Origin: Streptomyces noursei ATCC 11455
Lineage (GTDB): Bacteria; Actinomycetota; Actinomycetes; Streptomycetales; Streptomycetaceae
Length of the DNA: 64,000 nucleotides
Assembly (NCBI RefSeq): GCF_001704275.1
Contig: NZ_CP011533.1
Coordinates: 4,712,001-4,776,000 of the forward strand
Reading direction: 5' to 3'
Part shown: positions 127 through 20,101 of the stretch, in pieces
How the letters are laid out: each line of letters begins with the position of its first letter
Numbering within the stretch: the first letter of the stretch is position 1
The notes under the pieces: model-generated
The model's database searches: none
The model's input: the letters and a program-made list of their open reading frames with translations, nothing else
Told to the model about the DNA's origin: nothing
Position numbers and translations under genes: made by a program

Positions 127-136
127 ATAGACCCAA

Positions 137-3803: not shown

Positions 3804-3991
3804 TGCTCTGCCCTGCTTTCTGTCTGTCGCGCTGTTGTCGGTCTCTGCCGCTCCGGTGGCACCGTCCGCGGTCTCCGCGTCTCCGGTTCCCCCTGTACAC
3901 CAACGATGCTAGGGCGCCGGAGGACGCCATGGGGGCCCGACAGCCCCGGCTCTCCCCTGAGCCGACCCCTACGGGTTCCGGGGTCCGTCCC

Positions 3992-4309: not shown

Positions 4310-4357
4310 CCCGTTCGCACCTCTCACCATTAAGCAGTCGTCTGCGACGATCTCACC

Positions 4358-4735: not shown

Positions 4736-4738
4736 CGT

Positions 4739-5305
4739 TTGACCACCCGCTACCGTGTCTGCTTCGTCTGCACCGGCAACATATGCCGTTCGCCGATCGC
4801 CGAGTCCGTCTTCCGTGCCCGGATCGCCGAGGACGGACTCGACGGGCTCGTCGAGATCGACAGCGCCGGCACCGGCGGCTGGCACGAGGGCGACGGAGCC
4901 GACCCCCGCACCATCGCCGTGCTGCACGCCGGCGGCTATCCGAGCACGCACACCGCCCGGCAGTTCCGCGCCTCCTGGTTCGCCCGGCGTGACCTGGTCG
5001 TCGCACTCGACGCGGGCCATCTGCGCGAGCTGCGTCGGCTGGCCCCGACCCCCGAGGACGCCGCCAAGGTCCGCCTGCTGCGCTCCTACAGCTGCCGCAC
5101 CGGCCCGGCCTCGGACCCCGCGGACCTCGATGTGCCGGACCCGTACTACGGCGGCTTCGCCGGCTTCGAAGAGTGCCTGGAGATGATCGAGACGGCCTGC
5201 GACGGCCTCCTGGAGGCGGTCCGCGCCGAGGTCACCTCCGGCGCTCCGGGCCCGGCCGAGCCCCGGCCGGGCCTGCACCACCCCCACCGCAAGGAGAGCG
5301 CATGA
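4739..5305 (+). CDS. ptpA: Low-molecular-weight protein-tyrosine phosphatase
   Basis: The catalytic P-loop CTGNICRS is near the N-terminus, with nucleophile Cys11 and Arg17 (C-x5-R-S). The general-acid loop is DPYYGG. Of 188 residues, the last 25 or so after the fold are a Pro/Gly/His-rich tail. The start is TTG 4739, with AAGGA six bases upstream, giving TTRYRVCFVCTGN. The protein closely resembles Streptomyces PtpA, a phosphotyrosine phosphatase linked to secondary metabolism. Its stop overlaps the start of the next gene (ATGA), indicating translational coupling. Confidence 0.92.
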   Translation: MTTRYRVCFVCTGNICRSPIAESVFRARIAEDGLDGLVEIDSAGTGGWHEGDGADPRTIAVLHAGGYPSTHTARQFRASWFARRDLVVALDAGHLRELRRLAPTPEDAAKVRLLRSYSCRTGPASDPADLDVPDPYYGGFAGFEECLEMIETACDGLLEAVRAEVTSGAPGPAEPRPGLHHPHRKESA

Positions 5306-6477: not shown

Positions 6478-6499
6478 CACCGCGGCACTACGGCGCTGA

Positions 6500-6524
6500 A
6501 ACGGCCGGCAGGGTATCCCCCCTC
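6500..6524 (+). repeat. attL: 25-bp core repeat
   Basis: The sequence beginning AACGGCCGGCAGGG and ending CCCCCCTC is identical at 49417-49441. It lies 22 bp after the cystathionine gamma-lyase stop. In the unintegrated chromosome this core would be the 5' arm of the 13-bp stem still visible at attR, so attB overlaps a terminator hairpin, not a tRNA gene. Confidence 0.9.
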
Positions 6525-6578
6525 AATACTCCGCCGGCCCCGGCGGAGCAGGGGAAAGATCGCCGATCAGGTCCCTGA
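6525..6578 (+). other. Detached phage-encoded 3' end of the integrase reading frame
   Basis: Joining the integrase frame across the attP core continues it into this segment. It reads NTPPAPAEQGKDRRSGP and then TGA at 6576-6578. In free phage the integrase would therefore be 470 residues, not the 485 encoded by the prophage. Confidence 0.8.
6529..6548. terminator. GC-rich hairpin next to attL
   Basis: CTCCGCCGG and CCGGCGGAG form a 9-bp inverted repeat separated by two bases. It lies just right of attL in phage DNA, overlapping the end of the native integrase frame. It could end integrase transcription in free phage. In the lysogen it may replace the terminator of the upstream host gene. Confidence 0.5.
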
Positions 6579-6635
6579 CCTGCGGCGGAGGCCGTTTCAG
6601 GGCGTTGCCCGTGTCGCGGGGTTTATGGGGACCGC

Positions 6636-6674
6636 ACTCCCCAGAGACTCCCCAAACTCCCCAGAAACTCCCCG
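6636..6674 (+). repeat. Four direct repeats ACTCCCCA: candidate integrase arm-type sites
   Basis: Copies at 6636, 6647, 6656 and 6667 (the last ends in G) are spaced 11, 9 and 11 bp apart. The same octamer occurs twice, 11 bp apart, at 49342 and 49353, on the other side of the attP core. Direct repeats on both arms of attP are typical of binding sites for the N-terminal arm-binding domain of tyrosine integrases. Confidence 0.6.
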
Positions 6675-6713
6675 GGGACCGCGTTGAAACGGTCGCTGTT
6701 CACCGTCCGAAAT

Positions 6714-8540
6714 CTAGCTTGCTTGTCGGATCTCCTTGCCGCACAGGGCAATGCCGTGATCGTCGATCTGCCAGAAATCCTGGTCTCCGCAGTCGTCCTT
6801 ATTGGAGTACACGCCCGTGATCCTGACGATGTACTTGTACTTGTCGGGGATGTGACCATCGCAGGGAGTGATCTGGTTGCGCTGGAGGGCCTCCTTCTTG
6901 TCGGCGAACTCGCACTGGCCGACACGAAAGTTGCGGTTCAAGCAGAAGGCGATCTTGGTGCCGTTGTCGTTGTCGTGGGACCAGCGGTAGTCGTACGTGT
7001 CGGAGCAGCTTGCGGAGTCGTGCACGATCGACATCACACGGTAGTAGGAACCCGTACCGGTGCAGCTAGCCGCATGCGGAGTTTTGGGCGACCACGCCCC
7101 GTCGGGGTTGTTGTAGTTGTCCAGACAGTCGTCGATGCTGATGCCGGCGAATGCCTCGTCCTGTGGGCTGGGGGGAGTGGGCTCGGGGCCGGAGGGAGTG
7201 GGACTATCCTCCACTCCGCCGGAGTCGTCAGGGCTGCTGGTGTGGGTGCGCGAGGGGTCGGGCGAGTTGTTTGAGTGGTTGCCGTGGAAGTTGATGACCA
7301 AGCTGACGACAAGAGCTGCGACACCCAGCAGTGCGTAGAGGTACTCGTTCTTCCAGCCGACCCGGCGGGGCGTCGTCTCACCCGGTCCGATGCTCGGCGG
7401 CGTACTGCCGCCGGGAGCCGTGTCCGGTGGCTTCGGCTTGGAGTCCGGGCTCTGCCGGCCGGACCCCTGCCCGTTGGCTGTCGCGCTCTCCGGGCCTGTC
7501 TCCGGCTTCAGGCCCGGACCGTCCGGATCCGGCCGTCCGGACTTCCGCACCCCGTCCTGGCGGTCCTCCTCGGTGAGGTGACGGGTCCCGCCCGGGCCGA
7601 CGGTCCAGCTGCGGGTGACCGTCTCGGCCTCCGCCTGGTCGGCGGCCCGCTGGAGCCGTCGGCCCTCCTCCGCGTACTGGGCGACCAGCGACGTCCAACC
7701 GGCCGACAGGGTCCGGCTGGTGCCGCTCTCGAAACGCCGGATAAGCTGCTCGGCCGTCAGCCGGTCGTCGGGCCGCGCCGCGAGGCAGTCGCCGACCACC
7801 TCGTCCAAACCCGCGGGAAGCCCGTCCAAATCGATGGCGGCCTGCCGCACATAGTTGAGCTGCTGGAGCGGCTCACTGGTCTCCGGATACGGCAGCTTTC
7901 CACAGGCCACGTAGTACAGGGTGACGCCGAGTGCGTAGATGTCCGAGGCTGGTGTGCTGGGGTGCCCCTGGGCCTGCTCGGGTGCGGCGAAGGCGATGGT
8001 GCCGAGGGTGAGTTTGGTGCTGGTGAGGTCGCTGGCATGGGAGATGCCAAAGTCGATGACCTTGGGACCATCCGAGCACAGCAGGATGTTCAGGGGCTTG
8101 ACGTCCCGGTGCACGATCCCCTTGTCATGCAGCTCGGCCAGGGCCCGGACCACGCCGGAGGCGATCCAGCGCACCGCACGTTGGTCGGTCAGGGGCCCTT
8201 TCTGCACCACCAGCGCCTCCAACGACGGTGCCGGGACGTATTCCATGGCCATCCACGGCCGACCCGCGTCGACGTCGGAGTCCAGGACCCGTGCGGTGTA
8301 CGAGCTCGTGACACGGTGGGCGAGCTTGACCTCGCGGTTGAAACGTTTCCGGGCCTCCTCACTGACGCCGCCCGGAGCCAGCAGCGTCTTGACGGCAGCG
8401 ATCCGGCCTGAGCCCGGATCCCGTCCTAGATAGACCACGCCCATGCCGCCGGTGGCCAGTTGTCCGAGCAGCCGGTACGGGCCGAGGCTCCGTAGTTCCC
8501 CACTTAAGGCGAACACGCCCATGCCGAAAGGATCCGTCAC
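6714..8540 (-). CDS. Membrane-anchored Ser/Thr protein kinase (prophage cargo)
   Basis: A 608-residue Hanks-type kinase. The Gly-rich loop and AVK lysine come first, then the catalytic loop HRDVKPLN (H144, D146, K148), DFG at 163-165 and an APE-type motif. A Pro/Gly-rich linker follows, then one TM helix at about 401-420 and a Cys-rich extracytoplasmic sensor region of about 190 residues. All key catalytic residues are present. The start is GTG 8540 with GGGGGA six bases upstream. There are no PASTA repeats. It is the first gene inside attL. Phage-borne Ser/Thr kinases such as Stk of coliphage 933W exclude other phages; a similar role here is inference. Confidence 0.9.
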   Translation of the reverse strand: MTDPFGMGVFALSGELRSLGPYRLLGQLATGGMGVVYLGRDPGSGRIAAVKTLLAPGGVSEEARKRFNREVKLAHRVTSSYTARVLDSDVDAGRPWMAMEYVPAPSLEALVVQKGPLTDQRAVRWIASGVVRALAELHDKGIVHRDVKPLNILLCSDGPKVIDFGISHASDLTSTKLTLGTIAFAAPEQAQGHPSTPASDIYALGVTLYYVACGKLPYPETSEPLQQLNYVRQAAIDLDGLPAGLDEVVGDCLAARPDDRLTAEQLIRRFESGTSRTLSAGWTSLVAQYAEEGRRLQRAADQAEAETVTRSWTVGPGGTRHLTEEDRQDGVRKSGRPDPDGPGLKPETGPESATANGQGSGRQSPDSKPKPPDTAPGGSTPPSIGPGETTPRRVGWKNEYLYALLGVAALVVSLVINFHGNHSNNSPDPSRTHTSSPDDSGGVEDSPTPSGPEPTPPSPQDEAFAGISIDDCLDNYNNPDGAWSPKTPHAASCTGTGSYYRVMSIVHDSASCSDTYDYRWSHDNDNGTKIAFCLNRNFRVGQCEFADKKEALQRNQITPCDGHIPDKYKYIVRITGVYSNKDDCGDQDFWQIDDHGIALCGKEIRQAS

Positions 8541-8942
8541 AGAAATTCCCCCTCCATCCAGTTGACGCAGGCACTGACGAGCCCGCGTCAACCTTGGTCC
8601 CTATCCAATCCCCGGTATGCGCATGCCTGTTCACGCCCCACAGGGCTGCCGGACCGACCGAACTTCGTCAGCGAACACGCCCGACATCACCCAATCAAGT
8701 TCAGCACCTCGTGAAGGTCACAGGGATGATGGCGAACGAAGGCTGCGCCGCGCCAACCGTGCGGCTGGCGCGAGGAATTGAGCGGGTGAGAGTCCGTCCT
8801 CGCAATGACGTCCGGAACATTTTGATCTTGAGGTACGGTGTCCGGGATTCGGTTGCTTCGTGCCGGAAACGAAGCGGCCCCCGGCGGTGCTGGAACACCA
8901 ATCCGAGGGCCTACACCGCCAAGGAGATAGGACCTCCCTGGG
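8541..8942. other. Divergent intergenic region between the kinase and an HTH gene
   Basis: About 400 bp with no convincing gene. Local base composition is more AT-rich around 8817-8850 than in the neighbouring genes. It should hold the promoters for both divergent genes, but I cannot assign -10/-35 elements with confidence. Confidence 0.5.
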
Positions 8943-9980
8943 ATGCTTCGGCATGCTATCGCGCCTGCGCGTTTCTTCTCGCAGGTGCCCAACGACATCA
9001 TTCGCCACCCCCGCCTGTCGTCGGACGCCGTACGCCTGCTGACCTGGCAGCTGTCGCTGCCGGACGGCGTCGACGAGCCGCTGTCCACGACGGCGAAGCG
9101 GGCCGGGATCAAGAAGACGGCGTTCATCCGCGCGAAGCGGGAACTGTCCGCCGAGGGCTATCTGCACGAGTGGCGTCGCCAGGGTCCGGCAGGCCGCTGG
9201 TCCACCGTCCAGCTCGTCTCCAACGTGCCGCTCGGTGCAGCCGAGGCCGCCGGGGTGCGCGACGGTCGACCGGCGGACGGGATTCCGGCCGTCGGTGAGC
9301 CGATGGGCCGGGCGGTCGGCCGTTCCCTTGAGAACACTGTCGAGAACATCCCCAACCCACCCTCCCCCGACGAGCAGATCGACGGTCAGGCCCCCGTCCT
9401 TGGCCACGCGGCCAAGGACGACGGGCGGGAGGGCGGGCAGTCCCCGAACGACGAGAAGACCCCGGCGCCAGAGCCCGACGTCGCGCCAACGATGCCGCAG
9501 GAGTTGGTGGAACGCGCTGCTCAAGCCCTCGCTGCTGTGTCCCACGATGAGCGCCGGTTACGGCTCGGTGGGCGCGAGGTTCGGCAGCTTGCGCCGTTGG
9601 CGGGTGAATGGCTGCAACGCGGGGCCACGATTCGGGATATCCGGGAGGCATTGACGTCCGGGCTGCCGGAGACGGTGCACTGCCCGGTGGCGCTGGCACG
9701 CGATCGGCTGGTGCGGAAGATGCCGGATGCGCCGTCGTTCGCCGAACAGCGGGCGATGGCAGCGCCCGCAGCGCCACGCGTGGCCGCAATGCGGGAGTGC
9801 GCCGGCGAGCATCTCCAGCCGCTGCTGTTCCGGCCGGTGAACGACGAGAGGCTGTGTACGGCGTGCCGCAGCCAGCAGGCCGAGACGGCCACGGCCGGTG
9901 ATAGGCCCGTGACCGTCGGAGCAGGGCACACGCTGTTTGCTGCGGCCCGCGCAGCCATGCGGGCAGGAGCGCCGGCGTGA
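8943..9980 (+). CDS. Helix-turn-helix protein, replication-initiator-like N-terminus
   Basis: The 345-residue protein opens MLRHAIAPARFFSQVPNDI and HPRLSSDAVRLLTWQLSLP, a start found in many streptomycete and integrative-element proteins annotated only as helix-turn-helix. A winged helix covers roughly residues 20-85. The middle (90-180) is low-complexity and acidic. The C-terminal part carries C-x5-H and CTAC residues that could bind zinc. AAGGAGA lies 17 bases before the ATG, longer than usual. Function is unknown. It is convergent with the XRE-TPR regulator gene. Confidence 0.7.
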   Translation: MLRHAIAPARFFSQVPNDIIRHPRLSSDAVRLLTWQLSLPDGVDEPLSTTAKRAGIKKTAFIRAKRELSAEGYLHEWRRQGPAGRWSTVQLVSNVPLGAAEAAGVRDGRPADGIPAVGEPMGRAVGRSLENTVENIPNPPSPDEQIDGQAPVLGHAAKDDGREGGQSPNDEKTPAPEPDVAPTMPQELVERAAQALAAVSHDERRLRLGGREVRQLAPLAGEWLQRGATIRDIREALTSGLPETVHCPVALARDRLVRKMPDAPSFAEQRAMAAPAAPRVAAMRECAGEHLQPLLFRPVNDERLCTACRSQQAETATAGDRPVTVGAGHTLFAAARAAMRAGAPA

Positions 9981-9996
9981 AGCGATCGTGGCTGGT

Positions 9997-11331
9997 TCAG
10001 ACCGCCGACGCGTCCAAGACGTCCTTCAGCTGTCCCGCGCCCGGTGACGTGCGGATGGCCCTGTACAGCGCGAGTGCGCGGGTACGGGTCAGGCCCGTCC
10101 GGTAGGCCGCTGGCAGTTCCCCGAATGCTTGTGCGGCGACGCGTGCGGCCTCCTCGGGCTCCCCGTCGTGGGCCAAGCACGAGGCTCGGTCGATGGAGAT
10201 CAGTGCGCGGGTCATCAGGCTCGGACTGCGGGACAACTCCAGCGCGCGGGCCTGCGTGGCGTAGGCGCGCTTCGTCTCGCCGAGGATGGTCAACGCCTGG
10301 CTGAGATGGACGTGGTGTTTCTGCTCGGGGTAGCCGAACCAGGTGTCGGCGGCTTGCTGCGGGGTGAGGTGGTCCATCAGGTGTTCGGCCTCGGACACGG
10401 CCGTCAGCGCGGCGACACGGTTGCCACGGGCGGCATAGGCGCGGGCTGCGACAGCGCACGCGAGTGCAGCCGCGGCTGACGGATGGCCGCCCGCCAGATG
10501 GCGGGACTTATCGGCAAGGTCAGCTGCGGCAGCGGGGGCGCCGAAGTTGAGCGGGACCATGGCCTCACGGGCCAAAGCCCAGGCGTGGAGGCCGGTATCG
10601 CCAGACTCGCCGGCGGCGCGCCGAGCCGTGTGGAACCAGGCGTGTGCCTCGCGGTGGTCGCCGAGATCATGCAGGACGATGGCCGTCATGCCCGCCATCT
10701 GCGCCGTCACATGGCACATGCGCGTCCGCGACTTGATGGTCTGGGAGGACGTGAACAGCGGTTTCATGTCGTCGAAGTCGAGAACCAGGTCGGCCAGAAC
10801 CTTGCTAGGAGCCTTGCCGTTGTAGCCGTAGCCGTACCGTTCGGCTGTGGACTCCCAATACGACAGGTCCGCGGTGGGTTGGTCGGTCAGAGCTGAATCG
10901 AGATCCTGACGGGCAGCGGTGAGCGCGGCGGCGCCGGCGCCGGTAAGACCGGCGGCGAGGGCGCCGCGCAGAAGGTTGCGGCGCTTCATCCGATCGTCTC
11001 CATCGTCGTGCTCCATGCGGGCAGGGGAGGCACTGTTGCGGCTCTCCCAGGGTCGCGCAGCTAAGCCCAAGTGTCGCCCGGGAATGCGAAGTCCGTCTGC
11101 AATCCGTTCGATTGCGGCGAGCGTGGTGACCGCTCCCTCTCCCCGGGCGAGCTTTCCAACCCGTTCCGCCTTGAGCCCACACGCTTCGGAAATCTTGTTG
11201 TAACTGATGTCTGCCGCCTCGTGGGCGAGAGCAAACACCGCCCCGAAATCGCGGCGTTGAAGAGCCTGGCCTAACCGTGGATCGGCCAGCAGAGCACGCG
11301 GCAATGCTGCCGGTGACAGCGGGTACTCCAT
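9997..11331 (-). CDS. XRE-type regulator with TPR-like C-terminus
   Basis: A 444-residue protein with an N-terminal Cro/C1-type HTH (ISYNKISEACGLKAERVGKLARGEGAVTTLAAIERIADGL). The segment MKRRNLLRGALAAGL is hydrophobic, and a long alpha-helical TPR-like domain fills the rest. This layout is common in Streptomyces regulators that may sense a small molecule or peptide through the TPR domain. The start is ATG 11331 with a GGGGGTGGG purine tract just upstream. It is divergent from the small-ORF trio and lasso cluster, so it is the obvious candidate to control them; this is inference. Confidence 0.8.
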   Translation of the reverse strand: MEYPLSPAALPRALLADPRLGQALQRRDFGAVFALAHEAADISYNKISEACGLKAERVGKLARGEGAVTTLAAIERIADGLRIPGRHLGLAARPWESRNSASPARMEHDDGDDRMKRRNLLRGALAAGLTGAGAAALTAARQDLDSALTDQPTADLSYWESTAERYGYGYNGKAPSKVLADLVLDFDDMKPLFTSSQTIKSRTRMCHVTAQMAGMTAIVLHDLGDHREAHAWFHTARRAAGESGDTGLHAWALAREAMVPLNFGAPAAAADLADKSRHLAGGHPSAAAALACAVAARAYAARGNRVAALTAVSEAEHLMDHLTPQQAADTWFGYPEQKHHVHLSQALTILGETKRAYATQARALELSRSPSLMTRALISIDRASCLAHDGEPEEAARVAAQAFGELPAAYRTGLTRTRALALYRAIRTSPGAGQLKDVLDASAV

Positions 11332-11609
11332 CCCACCCCCGAGATGATGACGTTTCGTCACGGCCCGTTTCCCGCACGGAGCGTACTCCCACCCCCCACG
11401 GTGTGTACCCCTCATGGGGGCCCCAGCACGGGATTACGACGCCCCTGCCACGGGGCGTTCACTGGGCCTACCACCGCGGCGGGCCTGACTCCCGGTCTCC
11501 TGGCGGAGAGCTGGATTGGCCGCGGTGGGACAGCGGGGCTGTTCCCGTCCAGTTGCCCGTTCCCGGCGGGAACAGCCCCCACATCCGCCTGATGGAGAGG
11601 ACCGTCGTC

Positions 11610-11822
11610 GTGTCCACTGCACAGAACCCGCGGCGTGTGACCGCGAACAGCGTGCGTAGCTGCACACTGATGGAGGCCGGATTCCGCGCGAATTTGGCCG
11701 TAACGGGTCCGGTGACGCCGGAGGCCCGTGCCTTCTACGCCCGGCACGGCGACCCGTGCCGCTGGACCGCGCACGTGTTCAAGACGTATTTCGAGCTGGG
11801 CGGCGACTCGTGCCGGGGATGA
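11610..11822 (+). CDS. Small hypothetical protein 1 of an overlapping trio
   Basis: A 70-residue product starting GTG 11610 with GGAGAGGA upstream; an in-frame ATG at 11592 would add six residues. It includes SCTLMEAGFRANLAVTGPVTPEARAFYARHG. No family or function recognised. Its stop overlaps the next start as ATGA, which argues that it is translated. The 278-bp gap upstream separates it from the divergent XRE-TPR gene and should contain the promoter. Confidence 0.55.
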   Translation: MSTAQNPRRVTANSVRSCTLMEAGFRANLAVTGPVTPEARAFYARHGDPCRWTAHVFKTYFELGGDSCRG

Positions 11823-12001
11823 CCCTCAACGTGTACCGGGTGGCGCCCGAGACGATGGCCCGCACGAAGGTCGGATCCGTCGTCGTGCTGGCGCCCTTGG
11901 CCCGGGCGAAGCCGCCGCCCATGAGCGCGGCCTTCCCGCCGTGCCGGTGCCGCCGGTGCCGGCCACGTCCCAGCCGATACGGCAGGGGGGCGGCTCGATG
12001 A
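11819..12001 (+). CDS. Small hypothetical protein 2, Cys-rich
   Basis: A 60-residue product beginning MTLNVYRVAPETMARTKVG. Near its end is FPPCRCRRC, a CxCxxC cluster that could bind metal. Similar short proteins occur beside HTH genes in streptomycetes, without known function. ATGA overlaps with both neighbours imply a translationally coupled trio. Confidence 0.55.
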   Translation: MTLNVYRVAPETMARTKVGSVVVLAPLARAKPPPMSAAFPPCRCRRCRPRPSRYGRGAAR

Positions 12002-12243
12002 CCCGCCGCAGGCGACGGTACGGCCGGCTGGCACTGCCGGCATCGGCGAGGAGGCGGCGCCGGTTACACATGCCGGCCATCGATCCCGTAGAGGCGGTAT
12101 GGCACGTCCTCCAGGTCTTGACCGTTCTGACGCTCGGCACCGCCATCGGGTCCGATCTGGCCCGGCCGGCGCCGGCCTCGGCGGTGGCTTCGGATGCTGA
12201 GCCACCGGCAGCCGACCACGGGCTCGGGACCCGAACCCACTGA
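11998..12243 (+). CDS. Small hypothetical protein 3, one hydrophobic segment
   Basis: An 81-residue product with a very basic N-terminus (RRRRRYGRL... SARRRRRLH). It has one hydrophobic stretch (VLQVLTVLTLGTAIGSDLA) that could be a membrane anchor, and an acidic C-terminus. A GGGGGG tract precedes the ATG, which overlaps the preceding stop. No function recognised. Confidence 0.5.
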   Translation: MTRRRRRYGRLALPASARRRRRLHMPAIDPVEAVWHVLQVLTVLTLGTAIGSDLARPAPASAVASDAEPPAADHGLGTRTH

Positions 12244-12246
12244 ACC

Positions 12247-12327
12247 CCCGCTTCGGTACCGGTGATCATCAGGCCGCGGGCGAAGACCCCCGACGTTCGC
12301 GGTGAACCGTACCGGTACCGAAGCGGG
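12247..12327. repeat. 17-bp perfect inverted repeat upstream of the lasso precursor
   Basis: CCCGCTTCGGTACCGGT at 12247-12263 is exactly complementary to 12311-12327, with 47 bp between the arms. It lies just after the small-ORF trio and about 100 bp before the precursor gene. It could be a terminator for the trio or an operator for the lasso operon. The long spacer favours two regulator half-sites over a simple hairpin. Confidence 0.6.
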
Positions 12328-12423
12328 TTCCAGAGCGGGCCCAGGGGATGAACGCCCCCGCCCCTGGGCCGGTACCACCACTGGGGCTGTTGCTCCACGG
12401 AGATCACCGAGAGGAGGAACCAG

Positions 12424-12564
12424 ATGACACAGGTCGAGCGGACACCCGACCAGGTGCGCGTGGACGACGACGCACCCGCCGTGATCGTCCTCGACAACGC
12501 GGCCACCCTGACGCAGGGCGGCCAGGGCACCAGCACTGAGGACAAGCGGTACCAGTACGGCTGA
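12424..12564 (+). CDS. Lasso peptide precursor (A), albusnodin-type
   Basis: A 46-residue peptide, too short for usual gene calling. AGGAGG sits six bases before the ATG. The predicted leader ends ATLTQ, with Thr at position -2, which lasso proteases require. The predicted core is GGQGTSTEDKRYQYG, with Gly1 as amine and Glu8 or Asp9 as ring acceptor. Lys10 is the only Lys in the core and a plausible acetylation site given the GNAT gene downstream. The leader has no obvious YxxP recognition motif. A hairpin separates it from the cyclase gene. Call rests on gene order plus these residues. Confidence 0.82.
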   Translation: MTQVERTPDQVRVDDDAPAVIVLDNAATLTQGGQGTSTEDKRYQYG

Positions 12565-12572
12565 TGAACCCG

Positions 12573-12604
12573 GCGGCGGCCTTCCCTGAGGGGAGGGCCG
12601 CCGC
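12573..12604 (+). terminator. Attenuator hairpin between lasso precursor and cyclase
   Basis: Two 14-base arms (12573-12586 and 12591-12604) pair with a single G-T wobble around a TGAG tetraloop. It starts nine bases after the precursor stop. A hairpin here would give more precursor than enzyme transcript, as described for other lasso operons. Confidence 0.65.
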
Positions 12605-12638
12605 TCCGTTGCAGCAATCAGCGAACGGAAGGTGGGGA

Positions 12639-14336
12639 ATGAACTGGTTCGGAGGATGCGCGCCCGGCGGGCGGTCCCTTGTTCCTGCTGGCGTGCGGTT
12701 CATCTGGGACGATCCGCCCCTGTGGACCGTGGGGGCCGGGTCTCGCCGTTTCGTGCGCACGCTCGCCGACAGCGGCGGCCGGCTTGCTGTGTTCGGGCCG
12801 TGCTCGGCGACCGAAGGCGATCTCGCCCGCGCTCTGGCGAGTCCGGACCTGGCCGCCGTATTCGGGGGCGGCTGGGCGGGAGCGCACACCATCGTCCGTG
12901 CCGGCAGCGACGGTGTGCTCGAAGTGGTCAGCGATGCTGCTGGGGGCTCCCCGGTGTACATGGCGCGCGTGCCCGGCGGCGTGGTGTGGGGGTCCAGTTC
13001 GCGGGCACTGGCCGGGTTGGCCGGCGGGCGGGTGGATACCGATTGGCTGGCTGCATACCTATGCGACGTTCAGGGGGAAATGCGGGGGCACAGCGCGTGG
13101 GCCGGCGTTGATCTCGTCCCGGCTGGCCACCAACTCATCATGCACAGTGGGGAAGTCGCGAGGGTTTCACCGTGGTGGACGAGGAAGCGACGGCCCTACG
13201 GTGAGGCCGTAGCGTCACTACGCGATGCCCTGGTCGAAGGAGTACGGGCTCGCGCCGCCGGGGCGCCGGTCTCGTCGGATGTCGCGGGGCTCGACTCCAG
13301 CACGCTTGCCGTCCTGGCTGCGCTCGAAGGCCCGGTGATGGGGATGACCGTGCACCCGGCTGGAGCCGCGGAAGGCGGCGATGTCGCCTACGCCCGGGCT
13401 CTCGCCCAGGAGCTGTCGGCGATGCGGCATGTGTTGTTCCCGCTGGACGAGCGGCACCTTCCCCTGAGTGAGGCGGAGGCGGAGTTGCCAGCAACGGACG
13501 AGCCCGCGCCATCGTCGATCACCTGGGCGCGGTGTTCGGCGCAGCTGCGGGCGATCAGTCAGGCCGGCGCCGCCTGCCACCTGACCGGAGATGGCGGGGA
13601 CACGCTGTTTCAGCCGCCGCCGACGCACCTGTCCGAGCTGGCCCGCGCCGGGCAATGGGGCCGCCTCGTTGCCGATGCGCAGGCGTGGGCCTTGCTTCGT
13701 CGGGTGAGCCCATGGGGCCTGGTGAGAGCAGCGGTGCGTCGCAACACGTTCGCGCTGGTCGGAGGCGGGGGCCAACGGCCGGCGTGGGTCACCGCGGCGG
13801 CACCGGATCGGCGAACCTTGCCCGCCGTGGAGAGCACGTCCAATTCGGCGCTGCTTGCCGAAGTGCGCTACGTGGCACGGTCAGCTCATACCGAGCAACA
13901 ACTCGCCGACTCGCTCGGGGTCGAGCTGCACAACCCCTACCTCGATGGCCGGGTCGTCGATGCCGTCATGTCGGCGCCGCCGCGGGAGCGTTGTTCCGTC
14001 AGCCGGTACAAACCGCTGCTCGCCGATGCTGTCGGCCCGCTCCTGCCCCAAGCCGTTCGACACCGCCGGACCAAGGGGGTCTTCGTCGGCGAGTTTCACC
14101 GCGGCATGCGGATGAACTTACGTCGTGTACTTGATCTCGCCGAGGGGCGGCTGGCCGGGCTCGGTCTTGTCACTCCTGGGCCGTTGCGAGCGGCTGTGCA
14201 TGCTGCCGCTCTCGGCGCCGAGACGGCTTGGCCAGCGCTGCTGCCCACGCTGAATGCGGAGATGTGGCTCGCTGCCATCGACCGGGCACCCGTAGCCGGG
14301 TGGCACGAGAGGAGGCGCGGCTCCAGTGGCCGATAG
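12639..14336 (+). CDS. Lasso cyclase (C), asparagine-synthetase-like
   Basis: A 565-residue asparagine-synthetase B homologue. The N-terminal half is a Gln-hydrolase-like domain lacking the catalytic N-terminal Cys, as in lasso cyclases. The C-terminal synthetase domain should adenylate the Asp/Glu side chain and form the macrolactam. The ATP PP-loop reads DVAGLDSST at 214-222, one residue shorter than the usual SGGxDS form. HLTGDGGD and the C-terminal HRRTKGVF segments are conserved features. The start is ATG 12639 with AAGGTGGGGA upstream; an ATG at 12564 touching the precursor stop would translate the hairpin and is less likely. Confidence 0.87.
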   Translation: MNWFGGCAPGGRSLVPAGVRFIWDDPPLWTVGAGSRRFVRTLADSGGRLAVFGPCSATEGDLARALASPDLAAVFGGGWAGAHTIVRAGSDGVLEVVSDAAGGSPVYMARVPGGVVWGSSSRALAGLAGGRVDTDWLAAYLCDVQGEMRGHSAWAGVDLVPAGHQLIMHSGEVARVSPWWTRKRRPYGEAVASLRDALVEGVRARAAGAPVSSDVAGLDSSTLAVLAALEGPVMGMTVHPAGAAEGGDVAYARALAQELSAMRHVLFPLDERHLPLSEAEAELPATDEPAPSSITWARCSAQLRAISQAGAACHLTGDGGDTLFQPPPTHLSELARAGQWGRLVADAQAWALLRRVSPWGLVRAAVRRNTFALVGGGGQRPAWVTAAAPDRRTLPAVESTSNSALLAEVRYVARSAHTEQQLADSLGVELHNPYLDGRVVDAVMSAPPRERCSVSRYKPLLADAVGPLLPQAVRHRRTKGVFVGEFHRGMRMNLRRVLDLAEGRLAGLGLVTPGPLRAAVHAAALGAETAWPALLPTLNAEMWLAAIDRAPVAGWHERRRGSSGR

Positions 14337-14949
14337 CGATACCGTGATGGTGCTCACCGATCACTCGTGTGTGATCGTCAACTACCGAACTGGGCGTACT
14401 GAGTTACGACGTCTGACGGCACATGTAGGGGAAGCCGGCGTGGTAGTGCGGCACGGTGCAGCTGCCCCATCATGGGGGACCGTGGAAGTCCCGGCGGTGC
14501 TTCCCACGCCTGGGCCCGTGCCCACGCGGTGGTGGCTCGCCGCCATGCCGGTACTGATCGCGACCGTAGCCGTTCGGGTGATCGGCCCCAAACAGGGGCG
14601 ATTCCGCCGCCTGGTTCGGCTTGGATGCTGCGGTAGTGGCCTTCCGCCCGCTACGAAGGTGCAAGCCGTGCATGCCGTTCGTGCCGTCCGCAGGGCATCG
14701 CGCCTCGTCCCTGCGCGGTGGGCCTGTCTGGAGCAGTCGGCCGCCGTCGCGCTGCTGCTGGCGAGTGCCGGACGCCGGGCAGAGTGGCGGCACGGATTCG
14801 CCGCGGACCCGGTACGGCTTCACGCATGGATAGCTGACCAGGAAGGACGACCGGTTGAGGAGCCGGCCGAGACGTCCCTCTACACCCCGATCTACACGCC
14901 CGACGGCCCCGGATCCCCCAGGGCCGCGAAGGAGGCACACCGTGAGTGA
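14326..14949 (+). CDS. Lasso leader-processing protein (B), single-chain
   Basis: A 207-residue protein starting GTG 14326, overlapping the cyclase by 11 bp. The C-terminal half matches lasso B2 transglutaminase-like proteases: CLEQSAAVALLLASAG with catalytic Cys134, then HAWIADQEGRPV with His166 and Asp170. The N-terminal 80 residues take the place of the RRE (B1) leader-binding domain, although its sequence is divergent. It should cleave the leader after TQ. There is no separate B1 gene in the cluster, so leader binding is probably fused here. Confidence 0.82.
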   Translation: MADSDTVMVLTDHSCVIVNYRTGRTELRRLTAHVGEAGVVVRHGAAAPSWGTVEVPAVLPTPGPVPTRWWLAAMPVLIATVAVRVIGPKQGRFRRLVRLGCCGSGLPPATKVQAVHAVRAVRRASRLVPARWACLEQSAAVALLLASAGRRAEWRHGFAADPVRLHAWIADQEGRPVEEPAETSLYTPIYTPDGPGSPRAAKEAHRE

Positions 14950-15520
14950 CCCCCACATCGTTCTCCCCGGTGACCGGCTCGCCCTCGGCCTGCCGCGCCA
15001 GGACATGCTGCCCACGTACCACCGGTGGGAGAACAACCCTCGGACGATCCTCGGCTACGGCAACCAGATGCCGCAGAGCTGGGAAGCCCGCGCCGCCGGT
15101 TGGGACGGGCAGGCCCGCAACGGGCAACGCCCCGCGTTCGAGGTCATCCGACTTGAGGACAACGAACCGGTCGGGATGACGGTCCTGTACGTCGACCAGG
15201 CCGTCCGCAATGCGGAATACATCATGCTCATCGCCCCCGAGGCGCGGGGGAAGGGCTATGCAGCCGAAGCGACCCTCCTGACGCTCGACTGGGCGTTCCA
15301 CATCAGCTCGCTGGACATGGTGTGGCTCAAGGTCCTTGAACCCAATCAGGCTGGCATCACGGCCTACGAGAAGGCCGGGTTCCGACCGGCCGGACGACTC
15401 CGGCGGTCGGGGTTCTGGCTCGGGCAGCGCGCCGACGAGCTGATCATGGATGCGCTGCCGGAGGACTTTCCTGGGCCTTCTGCCGTATCCGCTGCCGTCG
15501 GAGCTCGCACGTCCTCCTAA
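14942..15520 (+). CDS. GNAT acetyltransferase of the lasso cluster
   Basis: A 192-residue RimJ/RimL-like N-acetyltransferase. The acetyl-CoA motif is APEARGKGYAAEA, followed by WLKVLEPNQAGITAYEKAGF. The start is GTG 14942 with GGAGG seven bases upstream, overlapping the B gene by eight bases, so it is part of the operon. In Streptomyces albus the lasso peptide albusnodin is acetylated by a clustered acetyltransferase, and the gene order here matches. The likely target is Lys10 of the core; whether before or after cyclisation cannot be told. Confidence 0.85.
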   Translation: MSDPHIVLPGDRLALGLPRQDMLPTYHRWENNPRTILGYGNQMPQSWEARAAGWDGQARNGQRPAFEVIRLEDNEPVGMTVLYVDQAVRNAEYIMLIAPEARGKGYAAEATLLTLDWAFHISSLDMVWLKVLEPNQAGITAYEKAGFRPAGRLRRSGFWLGQRADELIMDALPEDFPGPSAVSAAVGARTSS

Positions 15521-15551
15521 GGTCAGAGCGGGCTGGCCACAATGCGAAAAG

Positions 15552-15588
15552 GCGCCTCCGATCCGGCACATGGCCGGATCGGAGGCGC
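15552..15588. terminator. Bidirectional terminator between lasso operon and immunity gene
   Basis: A perfect 16-bp stem with a 5-nt loop sits between two convergent genes. On the minus strand it is followed by TTTT, giving a classical intrinsic terminator for the leftward toxin-immunity operon. It can also stop the lasso operon. Confidence 0.85.
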
Positions 15589-15601
15589 GCCGCTGCACCC
15601 G

Positions 15602-16132
15602 CTAGATCCACGGGTTGCGCTCGTAGCTGGGTTCCTCGTCGGGGAAGTCTTCGGGGAATACCTCGCTCACGATGTCGCCCTGCAGGACACGCAGAAGGTA
15701 GCTCTCCACAGGGCCTTCGTACAGGTCGTATTCGTCGCCCCGGCCGATCACTGTGAGGACGGCCCACCGGTCCGGATCCTCATTCGGGATCAAGAAGCAC
15801 AGATCCGCGTTGTCCGTGCCTCCCCAACGAACAAGCTCGGACGGACTGGAGCCTCGCTCCATCAGCAGATCCCGGATCTCCGGACGCGTCTTTTCCATTG
15901 TGTCGCGTGCGGCCAGTGTCCGGTGGACCAGGTCCACGTTCTGATTCTCTGCTCCAGCGCGGTAGACACGCAAGAAGTCGTCGAACTTAGCGCCACCGAA
16001 GATGCCCACGAAACGCTTGAAGTGCTCAGGGAAAACCACACCGAGGCTCTTCTCCGCGTCGTCCCAATCGTTCAGGACCGGGCCTCCATCGCCATACGCG
16101 GGAAATGACGCCAAGAGATCCAGATCAGACAT
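15602..16132 (-). CDS. SMI1/KNR4 (SUKH) immunity protein
   Basis: A 176-residue acidic protein with SUKH-superfamily features: an N-terminal segment around VFPEHFKRFVGIFGGAKFDDF, then WAVLTVIGRGDEYDLYEG. SUKH proteins are standard immunity partners of polymorphic toxins and often neutralise nucleases. It lies ten bases downstream of the nuclease toxin gene on the same strand, the expected position for a cognate immunity gene. Confidence 0.85.
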   Translation of the reverse strand: MSDLDLLASFPAYGDGGPVLNDWDDAEKSLGVVFPEHFKRFVGIFGGAKFDDFLRVYRAGAENQNVDLVHRTLAARDTMEKTRPEIRDLLMERGSSPSELVRWGGTDNADLCFLIPNEDPDRWAVLTVIGRGDEYDLYEGPVESYLLRVLQGDIVSEVFPEDFPDEEPSYERNPWI

Positions 16133-16142
16133 GCCCCACCTA

Positions 16143-17456
16143 CTACTTGTTGATGATCGTCTGGTTGATGTTCAGCCCGGAGCCCGTCGCCTCGATGTGG
16201 ATACCGGCAGGGATGAGATCACCCGGATGTGCGTAGACAGGGGTAGCAAAGTAATCCACAGGCCCCTTGTTCTTCACGGTGTCATAGATTTGCAGCTCTA
16301 TGTCCTTCATGGCCTCGTTGTTGGCCTTGTCGTACATGATCGCAATGTTTGCTTCCGACCTGCCGTCGCCACCCAGGGACCGCGCTAGCAGGTGGCCGCG
16401 CGTGTGGTCCGCAGCTTCCCCTTCCCAGCCCGGTGGCTTCACCCGGCGGGAAGCTTTGGTACCGGTGTCGAGCATGTCTTGCGTGATCTTCGTTTCGACG
16501 CCGGTGGCCCGACCCATGCTGTCCAGTGGCTTGCAGTACGGGGGGATTGGCTTTTGAGGTGCCCGGCCTCCCCCTCCGCCGCCGCGCTCGACGCTGCGCA
16601 TCAGGGGCTGGCCGGTCGGACCGACAGGCCCTTCACCGGCCATCGCCAGGCGCGGGCCGCCCAAGTTGGGCAGCTGTATCTGAAGGTTGGGCAGTGAGAC
16701 GTTGAGGTGCCCCAAGCCGTCCAGCTTCATGTTGCCCAGGAGGTTCTTGACGCCGCCAGCGTCCACCACCGCCTTGACTCCGCGGGCGGCTCCGCCTGCG
16801 GCGCCGCCCATGAGCATGCCGGACACACCGGCGTCCTTGATCTCGGCGACGTTGATCCCGTGTTGGTCCCCGAGCAGGTTCCGACCGCCCTGGGCGACGA
16901 CCACGTCCACCGTGATCGACCCGATGCTGCCGATGGCAGCCGTCGCCAGCACCGTGCCGGCGATCTCGGCGACGGTTGCCGAGACGGCCACGCCTGCCGT
17001 ACTGGCAGCGGCGACGATCGCCTCGGTGGCACCCGCGGCGGCCACCTCACTGATACCGCCGGTGAAGATGGCCAGCGCCGTGCCGGCCACCAGCACCGCC
17101 CCGGCGATCTCCAGCTCGTGCTCGATCTTCTTCTTCGCCTCGGCGATCTGGTCGGCGAACTTGTCCAGCGCCTTGGCCATGTCCCGCGCGGCGGTGGCGA
17201 CGTCGTCAAGGTAGCCCTTGCCACCGCCGTGGTACTTCTTCCAGAACGCGCCGAACGCCTCGATGCCGGCGCCCTTGTTGTTGTCGATGACGTCCTGGGC
17301 CTTTTTGTGGCAGGCGGCCGTGCAGTCCTCTACATCGTCGGCGAAGGCGCGCCAGGCGCGGGCGGCTTCCCGGAGTTCGTCCTCGTCGCCCTCCGGCCAC
17401 CACATGCCCGTGAGGTCTTGGACGATCTCCTTGGCTTTGTCGGCAGCGCTCATCAC
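16143..17456 (-). CDS. Polymorphic toxin: WXG-type N-terminus with non-specific nuclease C-terminus
   Basis: A 437-residue protein. Residues 1-110 are helical and WXG100-like (TGMWWPEGDEDELREAARAW). Two long hydrophobic Ala/Gly-rich stretches follow at about 115-190 and 200-240. A Gly/Pro linker leads to a C-terminal DNA/RNA non-specific endonuclease domain with the motif DHTRGH starting at residue 350, then RSEANIAIMYDKANN. The N-terminus suggests export by a type VII (ESX) system. The start is GTG 17456, overlapping the preceding WXG100 stop (GTGA). Order WXG100, toxin, SUKH is typical of secreted antibacterial toxin loci; finding it in a phage is unusual. Confidence 0.85.
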   Translation of the reverse strand: MMSAADKAKEIVQDLTGMWWPEGDEDELREAARAWRAFADDVEDCTAACHKKAQDVIDNNKGAGIEAFGAFWKKYHGGGKGYLDDVATAARDMAKALDKFADQIAEAKKKIEHELEIAGAVLVAGTALAIFTGGISEVAAAGATEAIVAAASTAGVAVSATVAEIAGTVLATAAIGSIGSITVDVVVAQGGRNLLGDQHGINVAEIKDAGVSGMLMGGAAGGAARGVKAVVDAGGVKNLLGNMKLDGLGHLNVSLPNLQIQLPNLGGPRLAMAGEGPVGPTGQPLMRSVERGGGGGGRAPQKPIPPYCKPLDSMGRATGVETKITQDMLDTGTKASRRVKPPGWEGEAADHTRGHLLARSLGGDGRSEANIAIMYDKANNEAMKDIELQIYDTVKNKGPVDYFATPVYAHPGDLIPAGIHIEATGSGLNINQTIINK

Positions 17457-17770
17457 GCACCGCCCTTAAAGCCGGACTTGGCCGACCGGTCCGCCTCCTC
17501 ATGGTTGGCCGCCATGTCGTTCATGGCCTTGGTGATGCTGGACAGGCCCTTGACCAGGGCCGTGGTCGCTTTCTCGATCTCCGACCGATGTGGGGCGTAG
17601 ACGTGCTCGAACTTCTTGCCCTGCTCGTCACTGCCCCACGGTTCCCCCAGCCCGCCGAGCGCATGCCGGAGCTTGGCCGCCGCCCTCTCCAGGGCAACAG
17701 ACTCCCGGTGGAACGTCGGAGCGGCGGACTTGAGTTGGTCAGTGTCTATGTCAAAGCCGTCGCCAGCCAT
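17453..17770 (-). CDS. WXG100-like type VII secretion partner
   Basis: A 105-residue helical-hairpin protein. The turn motif is GEPWGSDEQGKKF (W-G-S in place of W-x-G) and the rest is heptad-like. ESAT-6/WXG100 relatives pair with larger ESX substrates and may act as targeting partner or chaperone. ATG 17770 has GGAGG upstream. It is coupled to the toxin gene by a 4-bp overlap. Confidence 0.82.
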   Translation of the reverse strand: MAGDGFDIDTDQLKSAAPTFHRESVALERAAAKLRHALGGLGEPWGSDEQGKKFEHVYAPHRSEIEKATTALVKGLSSITKAMNDMAANHEEADRSAKSGFKGGA

Positions 17771-17937
17771 GCCTTGCCTCCCCCTTGGCCCTCGCCTCGT
17801 AACCGTCGCGAGCCGGTGCGCTACTCCCGGCTCCAGGTGGCGACGATCGCATACAGCACTGACAACAGCCCTGGTGGGAGCGCAATCCAGCCACAGAGAA
17901 GCGCTGCCCGAGGGGCTAACCCCGGACACGACTGCGG

Positions 17938-17966
17938 CCCCCCACCGGCCGGAAGCCGGTAGGGGG
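17938..17966. terminator. Hairpin terminator at the end of the phage late operon
   Basis: Arms CCCCCCACCGGC and GCCGGTAGGGGG pair with one mismatch around a 5-nt loop. It lies just downstream of the last lysis gene (leftward) and upstream of the cargo toxin operon, so it should separate late-gene from cargo transcription. Confidence 0.65.
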
Positions 17967-17990
17967 TCATTCACCGATGGCTTGATTCGA

Positions 17991-18212
17991 TCACCTTTGA
18001 ATGTCGTCACGGAGCTGGATCTTGTGCGTGGGTGTGACACGTTGGTGGGCACCAAGGCCCAGCCAGACGGAAGCAAGGGCGACGCCGGCACCGATCACGG
18101 CTTCGTTGACCGCGATGTCGGCCAGAGCCGGCACGGCGGTCCCGAGGAGGGACAGCAGGGCGACGATGATCGAGCGGACCATCACTGGGTTGTTGCGGAG
18201 GGTCTCGCGCAC
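17991..18212 (-). CDS. Putative holin with two TM segments
   Basis: A 73-residue protein with two hydrophobic helices (VRSIIVALLSLLGTAVPALA and VIGAGVALASVWLGLGAH) and a charged C-terminal tail (THKIQLRDDIQR). GTG start with GGAG five bases upstream. Size, topology and position directly after the endolysin and second lysis gene make it a holin candidate. Confidence 0.7.
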   Translation of the reverse strand: MRETLRNNPVMVRSIIVALLSLLGTAVPALADIAVNEAVIGAGVALASVWLGLGAHQRVTPTHKIQLRDDIQR

Positions 18213-18231
18213 GTGGGCTCCATGGGTGTGG

Positions 18232-18468
18232 TTAGGGAAGGGCGCGGAGGAGTTCGGCCGCTGCTGTGCCGAGGGCGGTGAGTAGGGCCAGGGGCAGGGC
18301 GTACTTCCAGCGCTCCAGCGCTCGGAGGCGGTCTTCGTGGTCGGTGAGGGTGCCGCGGACGCTTTCGGAGTTCTGGACGACGGAGCGCACGTCTTCGCGG
18401 AGGCCGACGACCTCGTCGTAGATCTCGCGGGCGCCGATCGTCACGCCGAGGGGGTCGCGGTTGCTCAT
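18232..18468 (-). CDS. Putative lysis accessory protein / second holin
   Basis: A 78-residue protein: a coiled-coil-like N-terminus (YDEVVGLREDVRSVVQNSES, LTDHEDRLRALERW) and one C-terminal TM helix (YALPLALLTALGTAAAELL). This layout resembles XhlA-like lysis proteins. The ATG overlaps the endolysin stop (ATGA), so the lysis genes are translationally coupled. Confidence 0.65.
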   Translation of the reverse strand: MSNRDPLGVTIGAREIYDEVVGLREDVRSVVQNSESVRGTLTDHEDRLRALERWKYALPLALLTALGTAAAELLRALP

Positions 18469-19784
18469 CGCATCAGCCTCCGCCAGGTGATCGGCCCGAC
18501 GTTGCCGTCGGCGTCGGTGCCGCGCCAGCCCTGGTCGCGCTGGAACGCCTTCACACCGGCGCGGGTGGTGTGGCCGTAGTAGGCAGACGCGCCGTAGGTG
18601 AGGTAGCGGCCGTAGCTGTGTCGGATGAGGGCATGGTCGACCTTCAGGACGGCCGGGCCGCGGGCGCCGTAGCGGACGGCCGCGCGGCCGGGGAACGGCG
18701 GTGTGGTCTGCGGCTTGGCGTGGATGCCTCCGCCGAGGAGGCGGCGGAGGGACGTGGGGCCGGGGATGCCGTCGGCGTCCGGGCCGCGGAAGCCGAGGGA
18801 GCGCTGCCAGGCGGCGTAGGCGCGGGTGTCCGCGTCGGTCCAGGTGGGGCCGGGGCCTATGCGGTAGTAGCCGCCGAAGCCGTGGGCGACGAGGGCCTGG
18901 CCGACGGTCGTGATGTGGCTCCCATGTCCGCCGGGGCCGTAGGTCTTGCCGCCGATCTGGCTGTTCTGTGGGCGGTGAGGCTTGGTCGGTGGGCGGGGCT
19001 TGGCCGGGTTGGCCGGCTTCGCACTCTCGTGATCGTTGCGGTCGGGGACGGTGATCCGGTCGCCGGGGTGAATGACGTTCGGGTTCCGGATCTGGGGGTT
19101 GGCGGTGAGGAGCGCTCCGAGCGAGACCCCCGCGGCTGCGGCGATAGCCCCCAGGGTCTGCCCGGCCTTCACCGTCCAGGTGGGGCCGGAGGGCCGGGCG
19201 TGGTTGCCGCCGGTTCCCGGTGCGGCCTGGAAGAGGCTGGCCGGGTCGATGGCGCCGGGGTCCCAGTGGTCGTTGCCGGGAACGTGGCAGTGGCCGTAGT
19301 GGCCACCCTCGGCGTGCCAGACGGTGCGGTCCCGGTTGGTTGCGGCATACGCGGTACGTGCCGGGCCGCCCATGGGGAAGGTGTCGGGGACGCCCCAGGA
19401 GCGGATGGCGGACATCAGCGACCGGAAGTTCGGGCCGGGGCGCCAGTAGTCGGTGAACGGTCGGGAGGCGCGGGCCAGGACCTCGATCTGAATGCACACG
19501 CGGCCGGTGCGGTTGGTGCGGCTGGACCCGTCGTTGCGCAGGGCACGGGCCGACTCGTCCAGCGGTCCGAACTGGCCGAGGCGGTCGGTGGTCGGGTCGT
19601 AGAGGATGTGCGGCTGGGCGGCGATCTGGGTCAAGTACTGGGCGACGCTATCGAATGCCTGGTCGCCGGCACTGCTCTCGGTGGTGTGCCACACCACGCG
19701 TCCGGGGCGTCCGGGCGAGTCCATGGCTCCGCCGATGGAGCCGCTGCCCAGGCGTTCGACGCCGGGTATCCAGGTCGTGCCCAT
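18465..19784 (-). CDS. Endolysin: amidase, LysM and two peptidoglycan-binding domains
   Basis: A 439-residue modular lysin. Residues about 1-190 form an N-acetylmuramoyl-L-alanine amidase (PGRP-like) domain with VVWHTTESSAG, HILYD and GGHYGHCHVPGNDHWDPG supplying zinc-ligand His. A LysM module follows (WTVKAGQTLGAIAAAAGVS to HPGDRITVP). Two C-terminal peptidoglycan-binding domains end at GIPGPTSLRRLL and GNVGPITWRRLMR. It has no signal peptide, so release should depend on the adjacent holins. Confidence 0.9.
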   Translation of the reverse strand: MGTTWIPGVERLGSGSIGGAMDSPGRPGRVVWHTTESSAGDQAFDSVAQYLTQIAAQPHILYDPTTDRLGQFGPLDESARALRNDGSSRTNRTGRVCIQIEVLARASRPFTDYWRPGPNFRSLMSAIRSWGVPDTFPMGGPARTAYAATNRDRTVWHAEGGHYGHCHVPGNDHWDPGAIDPASLFQAAPGTGGNHARPSGPTWTVKAGQTLGAIAAAAGVSLGALLTANPQIRNPNVIHPGDRITVPDRNDHESAKPANPAKPRPPTKPHRPQNSQIGGKTYGPGGHGSHITTVGQALVAHGFGGYYRIGPGPTWTDADTRAYAAWQRSLGFRGPDADGIPGPTSLRRLLGGGIHAKPQTTPPFPGRAAVRYGARGPAVLKVDHALIRHSYGRYLTYGASAYYGHTTRAGVKAFQRDQGWRGTDADGNVGPITWRRLMR

Positions 19785-19900
19785 GGGTGCTGTCCTCCAT
19801 GTCTCTTCCGTGCCAGCCGGATTCCTGGCGTCAGGACGGCAGGCGTGAAGATGGCCCCGAGGTACTCCTCGGGGCCGGGTGCGTGTAGGTCGTGCGGTGG

Positions 19901-20101
19901 TCAGTCCGCGTCGGGTGGCTGGTAGCGCAGGCTGTATTCGAGGGTGGCGAGACGGCCGTCGATGCGGCTCACTCGGCTTGAGAGTGCGGGGACTTGGGGA
20001 TCCGGGGTGGTGGGCCGGAATTGGGAGCGGCCCTCGACGATGCGTAGGCGGCGTTCGATGGCGGCCAGGCGGTCGAGGAGGTCTGCGGGGAGGCGAGCCA
20101 T
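19901..20101 (-). CDS. Small phage hypothetical protein, coiled-coil-like
   Basis: A 66-residue charged protein (LPADLLDRLAAIERRLRIVEG, SSRVSRIDGRLATLEYSLRY) with heptad-like Leu/Ile spacing. It lies between the tail genes and the endolysin on the late strand. Possibly a minor tail or fibre-associated protein; no family recognised. Confidence 0.6.
   Translation of the reverse strand: MARLPADLLDRLAAIERRLRIVEGRSQFRPTTPDPQVPALSSRVSRIDGRLATLEYSLRYQPPDAD

Follow-up and report, generated by a model that had tools for sequence, protein, structure and literature searches.

The stretch of Streptomyces noursei ATCC 11455 DNA analysed here (64,000 nucleotides of contig NZ_CP011533.1, hereafter the window) contains an albusnodin-type lasso peptide operon that lies within a 42.9 kb prophage. 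The genes for the precursor (A), the lasso cyclase (C), the leader protease (B) and a GNAT acetyltransferase (T) are all on the forward strand, overlapping or closely spaced, in the order A-C-B-T as in albusnodin (Table 1). Precursor A is 46 residues long and ends in LTQ followed by the core GGQGTSTEDKRYQYG, whose sole Lys is at position 10. Against NF033525, the NCBIfam profile for albusnodin family lasso peptides, it scores 29.6 bits over profile positions 2-43 of 44 (cut-off 30), and the precursors of relative loci resemble it. The cyclase belongs to the albusnodin/ikarugamycin macrolactam cyclase family (NF033561), scoring 627 bits where 300 suffice. Its start is most likely at 12639 (MNWFGG) rather than at 12564. 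Glutaminase-type asparagine synthetases use Cys2, a residue that is absent from the MNWFGG start of C.

B scores 85.7 bits against the lasso B2 family NF033537 (cut-off 33), and its Cys134 and His166 are invariant among 11 aligned sequences. A structural model built from this 11-sequence alignment has a mean predicted local distance difference test score (pLDDT) of 78.6 and shows only a small N-terminal sheet at residues 1-30 (pLDDT 73-83). Judged by the model, B is a single-chain protein without a complete RiPP (ribosomally synthesized and post-translationally modified peptide) recognition element (RRE)/B1 domain, and the label 'B1-B2 fusion' would overstate what is there. A fold search of the PDB with the B model returned nothing usable, and PDB sequence searches returned no relative of C or of B. 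For the GNAT, whose start codon is a GTG, the nearest solved relatives are 9iy3, 9iy4 and 9ubc, with the entry title 'GCN5-related N-acetyltransferase' (170.6 bits). A B2 protease and a GNAT follow downstream in A-C-B-T order, as in albusnodin-family clusters. None of 200 shuffled sequences was as stable as the hairpin between A and C, and a stem-loop was seen by eye at this position in 10 of 11 folded clusters; the z-score of the S. celluloflavus hairpin is only -0.86. Upstream of the precursor gene, at 12247-12327, there is a perfect 17-nt inverted repeat with arms 47 nt apart, possibly an operator or a terminator. Scans of the cargo proteins with Pfam and NCBIfam profiles revealed neither an exporter of the kind that accompanies bacteriocins nor any other transporter.

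The prophage ends in a perfect 25-bp direct repeat. This is the longest direct repeat shared between window positions 1-20000 and 46001-58000; the maximum in 200 Markov nulls was 21. The outer neighbours, both named by eye, are a pyridoxal phosphate (PLP)-enzyme-like gene (5215-6477) and a LysR-like gene (49592-50530). These genes were searched for in 61 genomes, including the window's own, by taking the best same-genus matches (34 and 33 genomes, respectively); three genomes with the PLP-enzyme gene only and two with the LysR gene only were dropped from the spacing count, and other genera were excluded. In all 31 relatives with both genes, the two are adjacent, on one strand and 178-425 bp apart, compared with 43,114 bp in the window. 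In the relative most similar at both flanking genes, the empty site shows an unbroken hairpin with four mismatches to the 25-bp core; this hairpin match was seen in one of 19 relatives' loci and not in the other 18. The element is thus enclosed by att sites here and its site is empty elsewhere, as is the case for prophage cargo. Terminase, portal, capsid, tail, lysis and integrase genes are all present in this one element, as in a tailed temperate phage, together with RecT and an exonuclease. Its lysis and tail DNA is partly like that of the S. venezuelae phages Mojorita, PapayaSalad and SV1 (33-40% of the query, 65-66% identity). The integrase reading frame crosses attR, and its last codons in the lysogen are host DNA.

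An insertion of the lasso cassette into the chromosome as a separate island was considered and rejected: there is one long att pair, the site is empty in relatives, and the repeat families listed (20 of 28 direct, 25 of 33 inverted) include no conspicuous pair on either side of the cassette. The original prediction, made from the letters alone, had described the operon, its coordinates, the 46-residue precursor with one core Lys, the A-C hairpin, the single-chain B and the resemblance to albusnodin, and had placed all of it inside prophage boundaries with no second set of att sites. Each of these points is borne out by the present analysis.

Table 1. Features of the lasso operon, the prophage and its other cargo (window positions)
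Feature	Position	Strand	Remarks
attL, 25-bp core	6500-6524		Perfect repeat of 49417-49441; ACTCCCC arm-type repeats follow at ~6636-6674
Ser/Thr kinase, cargo	6714-8591	-	PF00069, 142.8 bits; PD-T4-6-like in PADLOC
Conserved cargo protein, weakly replication-initiator-like	8943-9980	+	phrog_4707, E 1e-4; 81% identical in S. celluloflavus
NsdA-family HTH/TPR regulator	9997-11415	-	NF053720, 144.6 bits (cut-off 75); 93% in S. celluloflavus
Lasso precursor A	12424-12564	+	NF033525, 29.6 bits (cut-off 30); 74% identical in S. celluloflavus
A-C intergenic hairpin, attenuator-like	12573-12604	+	14-bp stem; z -4.88
Lasso cyclase C	12639-14336	+	NF033561, 627 bits (cut-off 300); PF00733
Leader protease B, B2 type	14326-14949	+	NF033537, PF13471; modelled small N-terminal sheet replaces full B1/RRE
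GNAT acetyltransferase T	14942-15520	+	PF13302; best PDB match 9iy3, 170.6 bits
Operon-closing hairpin, terminator-like	15552-15588	+	z -5.86; counterpart at S. celluloflavus C62:112-166
Endolysin	18465-19784	-	phrog_17214, E 4e-127
Tape measure protein	23224-27162	-	phrog_10780
Major head protein	31084-31965	-	phrog_267
Portal protein	33744-35249	-	phrog_104
Terminase large subunit	35209-36822	-	phrog_19179; 64% identity to Streptomyces phage Kromp
HTH repressor-like gene, then IrrE/ImmA-like M78 peptidase gene	46948-48113	+	
Tyrosine integrase	48083-49540	+	phrog_1, PF00589; 3' end overlaps attR
attR, 25-bp core	49417-49441		Host terminator-like hairpin complete here

A related cassette is found in S. 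celluloflavus NRRL B-2493 (locus L105), where it lies with lysis genes on contigs C66 and C62 in a decayed prophage at rnpB; a pattern scan of genome contigs matched this species only. The element is flanked by a 39-bp repeat. On C66 this repeat overlaps a weak match to rnpB (22.5 bits, below cut-off); on C62, which has the full rnpB, it forms the 3' end of that gene. On C66, attL and arm repeats are followed by a stretch that matches window positions 8822-15521 at 83.5% DNA identity and diverges directly after the GNAT gene into an apparent insertion sequence. On C62, about 110 unmatched bases precede the operon hairpin (89%), a gene for a 210-residue protein without a Pfam match, a match to window positions 18018-18913 (91%) and an endolysin piece running into an integrase piece (41.6%), after which comes attR. 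CTCCCC repeats also adjoin the att sites of this element. Searches of the S. celluloflavus genome with the terminase and portal families tested gave no match. We read the element, across the open gap between C66 and C62, as a decayed relative of the window prophage; CTAAG, shared by both sides as judged by eye, fits a target duplication.

Another phage lineage, common to two further genomes (G199 and G709), has a serine integrase, a cyclase 49% identical to that of the window and the cassette at the integrase-distal end. An aceE-like gene adjoins a small gene (I36-like by eye) in four of 12 relatives' loci (L121, L123, L126 and L131); in G199 the two are separated by about 41 kb. This insert encodes the serine integrase, a terminase and a portal protein, as well as tail proteins that are 40-48% identical to those of the window. 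The lasso genes come within about 150 bp of its far end, and an NsdA-family regulator (301.6 bits) is about 3 kb away from them. Contigs C41 and C73 of G709 match G199 positions 126184-132165 and 134290-167098 in the same order at 70-90% DNA identity. Because the G709 sequence past the GNAT gene does not match G199, the G709 insertion site probably differs from that of G199. The same kind of cassette is hence present in related phages at other sites, at rnpB in S. celluloflavus and in the single lineage of G199 and G709, the site in G709 being deduced from the comparison.

To place these cassettes in context, we assembled 27 loci of the albusnodin clade: 13 above about 590 bits plus the split locus of G140, then 4, then 8, and finally the S. 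celluloflavus locus. The first survey found 28 of 295 genomes above the NF033561 cut-off, and loci at 300-370 bits were dropped as a separate group; later surveys matched 10 of 392 genomes (4 loci added) and 9 of 394 (8 loci added). The first 14 loci were screened for phage genes with 28 window proteins, G199 also with all window open reading frames (ORFs), and the later loci also with the ORFs of the G199 prophage. Four loci are phage-borne, 18 have no phage genes nearby and five (G028, G226-C48, G317, G140 and G174) are on contigs too short for a call. 'No phage' here means that 20 kb or more of retrieved sequence showed no sign of phage by the tests used, a label under which unrelated prophage types could be missed. 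A phrog_9 terminase search covered the genomes of all 27 loci; any match in a genome of the 18 is on a different contig from the lasso locus or at a distance of at least 150 kb. The only phage match near the G534 cluster is a weak one to a serine recombinase, 8 kb away. The closest database cyclases, from S. yunnanensis (85%) and S. kasugaensis (81%), are not among the 27 loci, and relatives of the cyclase occur on 56 plasmid records, all below 60% identity.

In a maximum-likelihood tree of 24 of the 27 cyclases (G249, G068 and G140 left out), with two outgroup rows from the 300-370-bit group, the phage-borne cyclases form two separate, fully supported pairs inside a single nine-member clade. 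The strongly supported branches require the label to change at least twice, and no more than these two changes were needed in six of 500 shuffles of the labels; the tree leaves the direction of change between phage and chromosome unproven. Within both phage-borne pairs, the ratio of nonsynonymous to synonymous substitution rates (dN/dS) is 0.19-0.20 for C, 0.33-0.34 for B and 0.16-0.18 for the GNAT; between the window and S. celluloflavus it is 0.53 for A (46 codons) and 0.11 for the NsdA-family gene. By these ratios, the lasso genes of the phage-borne pairs are under purifying selection. The NsdA-family regulator of the window is likely cluster-situated, and genes of this family were found near 8 of the 27 clusters: by tblastn in the window, S. 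celluloflavus, G028, G531, G534 and both G563 loci, and by NCBIfam in G199. G563, from another genus of the family, has two albusnodin-type clusters about 16 kb apart (C1:4577720-4598930), with an NsdA-like gene near each.

Precursors were found at 25 of the 27 loci after two off-target matches were dropped; G068 gave none and G174 has no upstream sequence. Gly1, Glu8 and Lys10 are present in 25 of 25, an invariance partly built in for Glu8 and Lys10, since the search patterns required an acidic residue and then Lys. Core position 9 is Asp in 10 precursors and Asn, Ser, Gly or Ala in 15. Because Gly1, Glu8 and Lys10 are constant and position 9 varies, Glu8 is the most likely ring acceptor, and the alignment suggests a Gly1-Glu8 ring with acetylation at Lys10. 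The calculated mass of the acetylated lasso peptide of the window is 1669.73 Da.

The window operon shares with albusnodin of Streptomyces albus DSM 41398, as described, the A-C-B-T order, the GNAT, the core Lys10 and a cyclase of the albusnodin/ikarugamycin family. It differs in sitting in a prophage, and its 15-residue core differs from GQGGGQSEDKRRAYNC and lacks the C-terminal Cys. We take GQGGGQSEDKRRAYNC to be the albusnodin core; it was found in loci L057, L058 and L104. The window cyclase is 34-38% identical to those of L055-L059 and L061. Albusnodin itself is described as acetylated at Lys10, with no product formed without albT (PMC9266682, PMC8498205). In lariocidin and triculamin, too, a GNAT accompanies the lasso genes and Lys acetylation is called self-resistance, which the lariocidin preprint words as a hypothesis; by analogy, the acetyl group may protect the producer here. 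The lariocidin cluster, as presented, has an ABC transporter and B1/B2, whereas in the window we found no transporter and no separate B1.

Carriage of such genes by prophages has precedents. Sublancin 168 is encoded on SP-beta of Bacillus subtilis, where RiPP genes are described as prophage cargo that benefits host and phage (PMC6391423); sublancin, however, is a glycocin rather than a lasso peptide, has a dedicated immunity protein, SunI, and comes from the Bacillota. Small biosynthetic gene clusters (BGCs) are reported in 13 of 2112 actinobacterial prophages, some of them from Streptomyces (PMC10023795); class I lanthipeptides and type III polyketide synthases (T3PKS) are named there, and 'lasso' does not occur in the main text. 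A review citing Dragos et al. 2021 states that up to 3% of prophages carry BGCs, mostly bacteriocins, and lasso-bearing plasmids have been reported (PMC9903846). A lasso cluster in a prophage is not reported in the portions consulted of PMC9903846, PMC12889140, PMC12874462, PMC8371330 and PMC11118758. We found no published lasso cluster on an actinophage, subscription papers and supplements being outside the search, so that priority is not established. The case is less isolated than the original prediction implied, because prophage-borne BGCs and bacteriocin clusters are already in print; what is new is the repeated association of lasso clusters with prophages. The check that the prediction proposed, a search for related sets in other actinophages, gave a positive outcome in prophages, namely those of S. 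celluloflavus, G199 and G709. Among catalogued phages (INPHARED) there was no relative of C, B or the NsdA-family regulator, and three pattern scans of IMG/VR confirmed no cyclase; a pattern for the window endolysin gave none either.

The rest of the cargo block bears on function. On the reverse strand at 15602-17456, a SUKH-like gene (below the Pfam cut-off) follows the gene of a protein that combines a WXG100 domain with a DNA/RNA non-specific endonuclease domain; the two look like a polymorphic toxin/immunity pair. In S. celluloflavus the 210-residue gene stands in place of this pair, and the Ser/Thr kinase gene was not found beside the cassette. The kinase resembles PD-T4-6 defence kinases in PADLOC, a match that may reflect generic kinase similarity. 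Just upstream of the gene at 8943, positions 8744-8940 (+) match the Streptomyces small RNA scr4677 (Rfam RF02673) at 42.2 bits (gathering threshold 41).

Taken as a whole, these data are probably best explained by a temperate tailed Streptomyces phage that carries an albusnodin-family lasso operon as lysogeny cargo between attL and the lysis genes. What the sequence establishes is an intact A-C-B-T set within att sites and, in a second phage lineage, a like cassette at the end away from the integrase. B would cut the leader after Gln31, C would form the Gly1-Glu8 isopeptide bond and thread the tail, and the GNAT would acetylate Lys10 early in maturation, perhaps also for self-protection, in line with reports on other lasso peptides with an acetylated Lys. 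The NsdA-family gene would tie expression to the developmental state of the host. With less certainty, the product would be a competitive, bacteriocin-like gain for the lysogen, from which phage and host profit together, as with sublancin on SP-beta. We lean towards such a conversion trait because the WXG100-nuclease/SUKH-like pair suggests weapon-bearing cargo and because of the sublancin precedent. Since no exporter was found among the cargo, release would depend on host pumps or phage lysis. More tentatively, and with some doubt, Streptomyces phages may have captured a lasso/GNAT/NsdA module at least twice, as a selected conversion module at the integrase-distal end near lysis and tail genes, where lysis may release the exporterless peptide.

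Several points weigh against the cargo explanation. By the tests used, the cluster is mostly chromosomal in its clade (18 of 27 loci), and it occurs in no catalogued phage and in no IMG/VR contig scanned, so that carriage is seen in prophages alone. Precursor A falls 0.4 bits short of the NF033525 cut-off. For the G199 prophage, the search for an att repeat gave nothing above 10 bp, and its ends were set by comparison with relatives; the element is split over two contigs in both S. celluloflavus and G709. The product, its antibacterial or signalling activity and the inducibility of the phage are putative.

The main rival, which we consider unlikely, is that the lasso peptide is a putative intracellular superinfection-exclusion factor that blocks incoming phages rather than killing bacteria. 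This would explain the absence of an exporter among the cargo proteins scanned, and the PD-T4-6-like kinase is in the same cargo block; moreover, a review (PMC12360287) tells of lanthipeptides that act inside Streptomyces cells to stop the transcription of phages, whose escape mutants are altered in GNATs of their own. However, the cyclase has no PADLOC match at E 0.001 and most clade members examined are chromosomal. The same chromosomal majority, the lack of terminase and portal in S. celluloflavus and four loci with related endolysins that have no lasso cassette on that side (G072, G031, G179 and G032) would fit a passively captured chromosomal island, useless to the phage and on its way out. 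We regard this as quite unlikely, given dN/dS values of 0.16-0.53 on lasso genes between the phage-borne pairs (the highest being that of the 46-codon precursor), a cassette that has outlived the structural genes in S. celluloflavus, and two phage lineages that hold it at the corresponding end. It is improbable that the product, under NsdA-family control, signals to the host mycelium or affects its development: NsdA-family genes do lie near some clusters, but these searches found none near the other 19, some of which are on short contigs, and the role of NsdA here is putative.

On the lysogeny cargo explanation, these prophages are concrete phages that could carry a lasso peptide trait between species, and they offer two phage lineages for study. 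They would also make the purpose of Lys10 acetylation, in folding or in self-protection, directly testable, because a phage establishing itself in a naive host would need its own protection.

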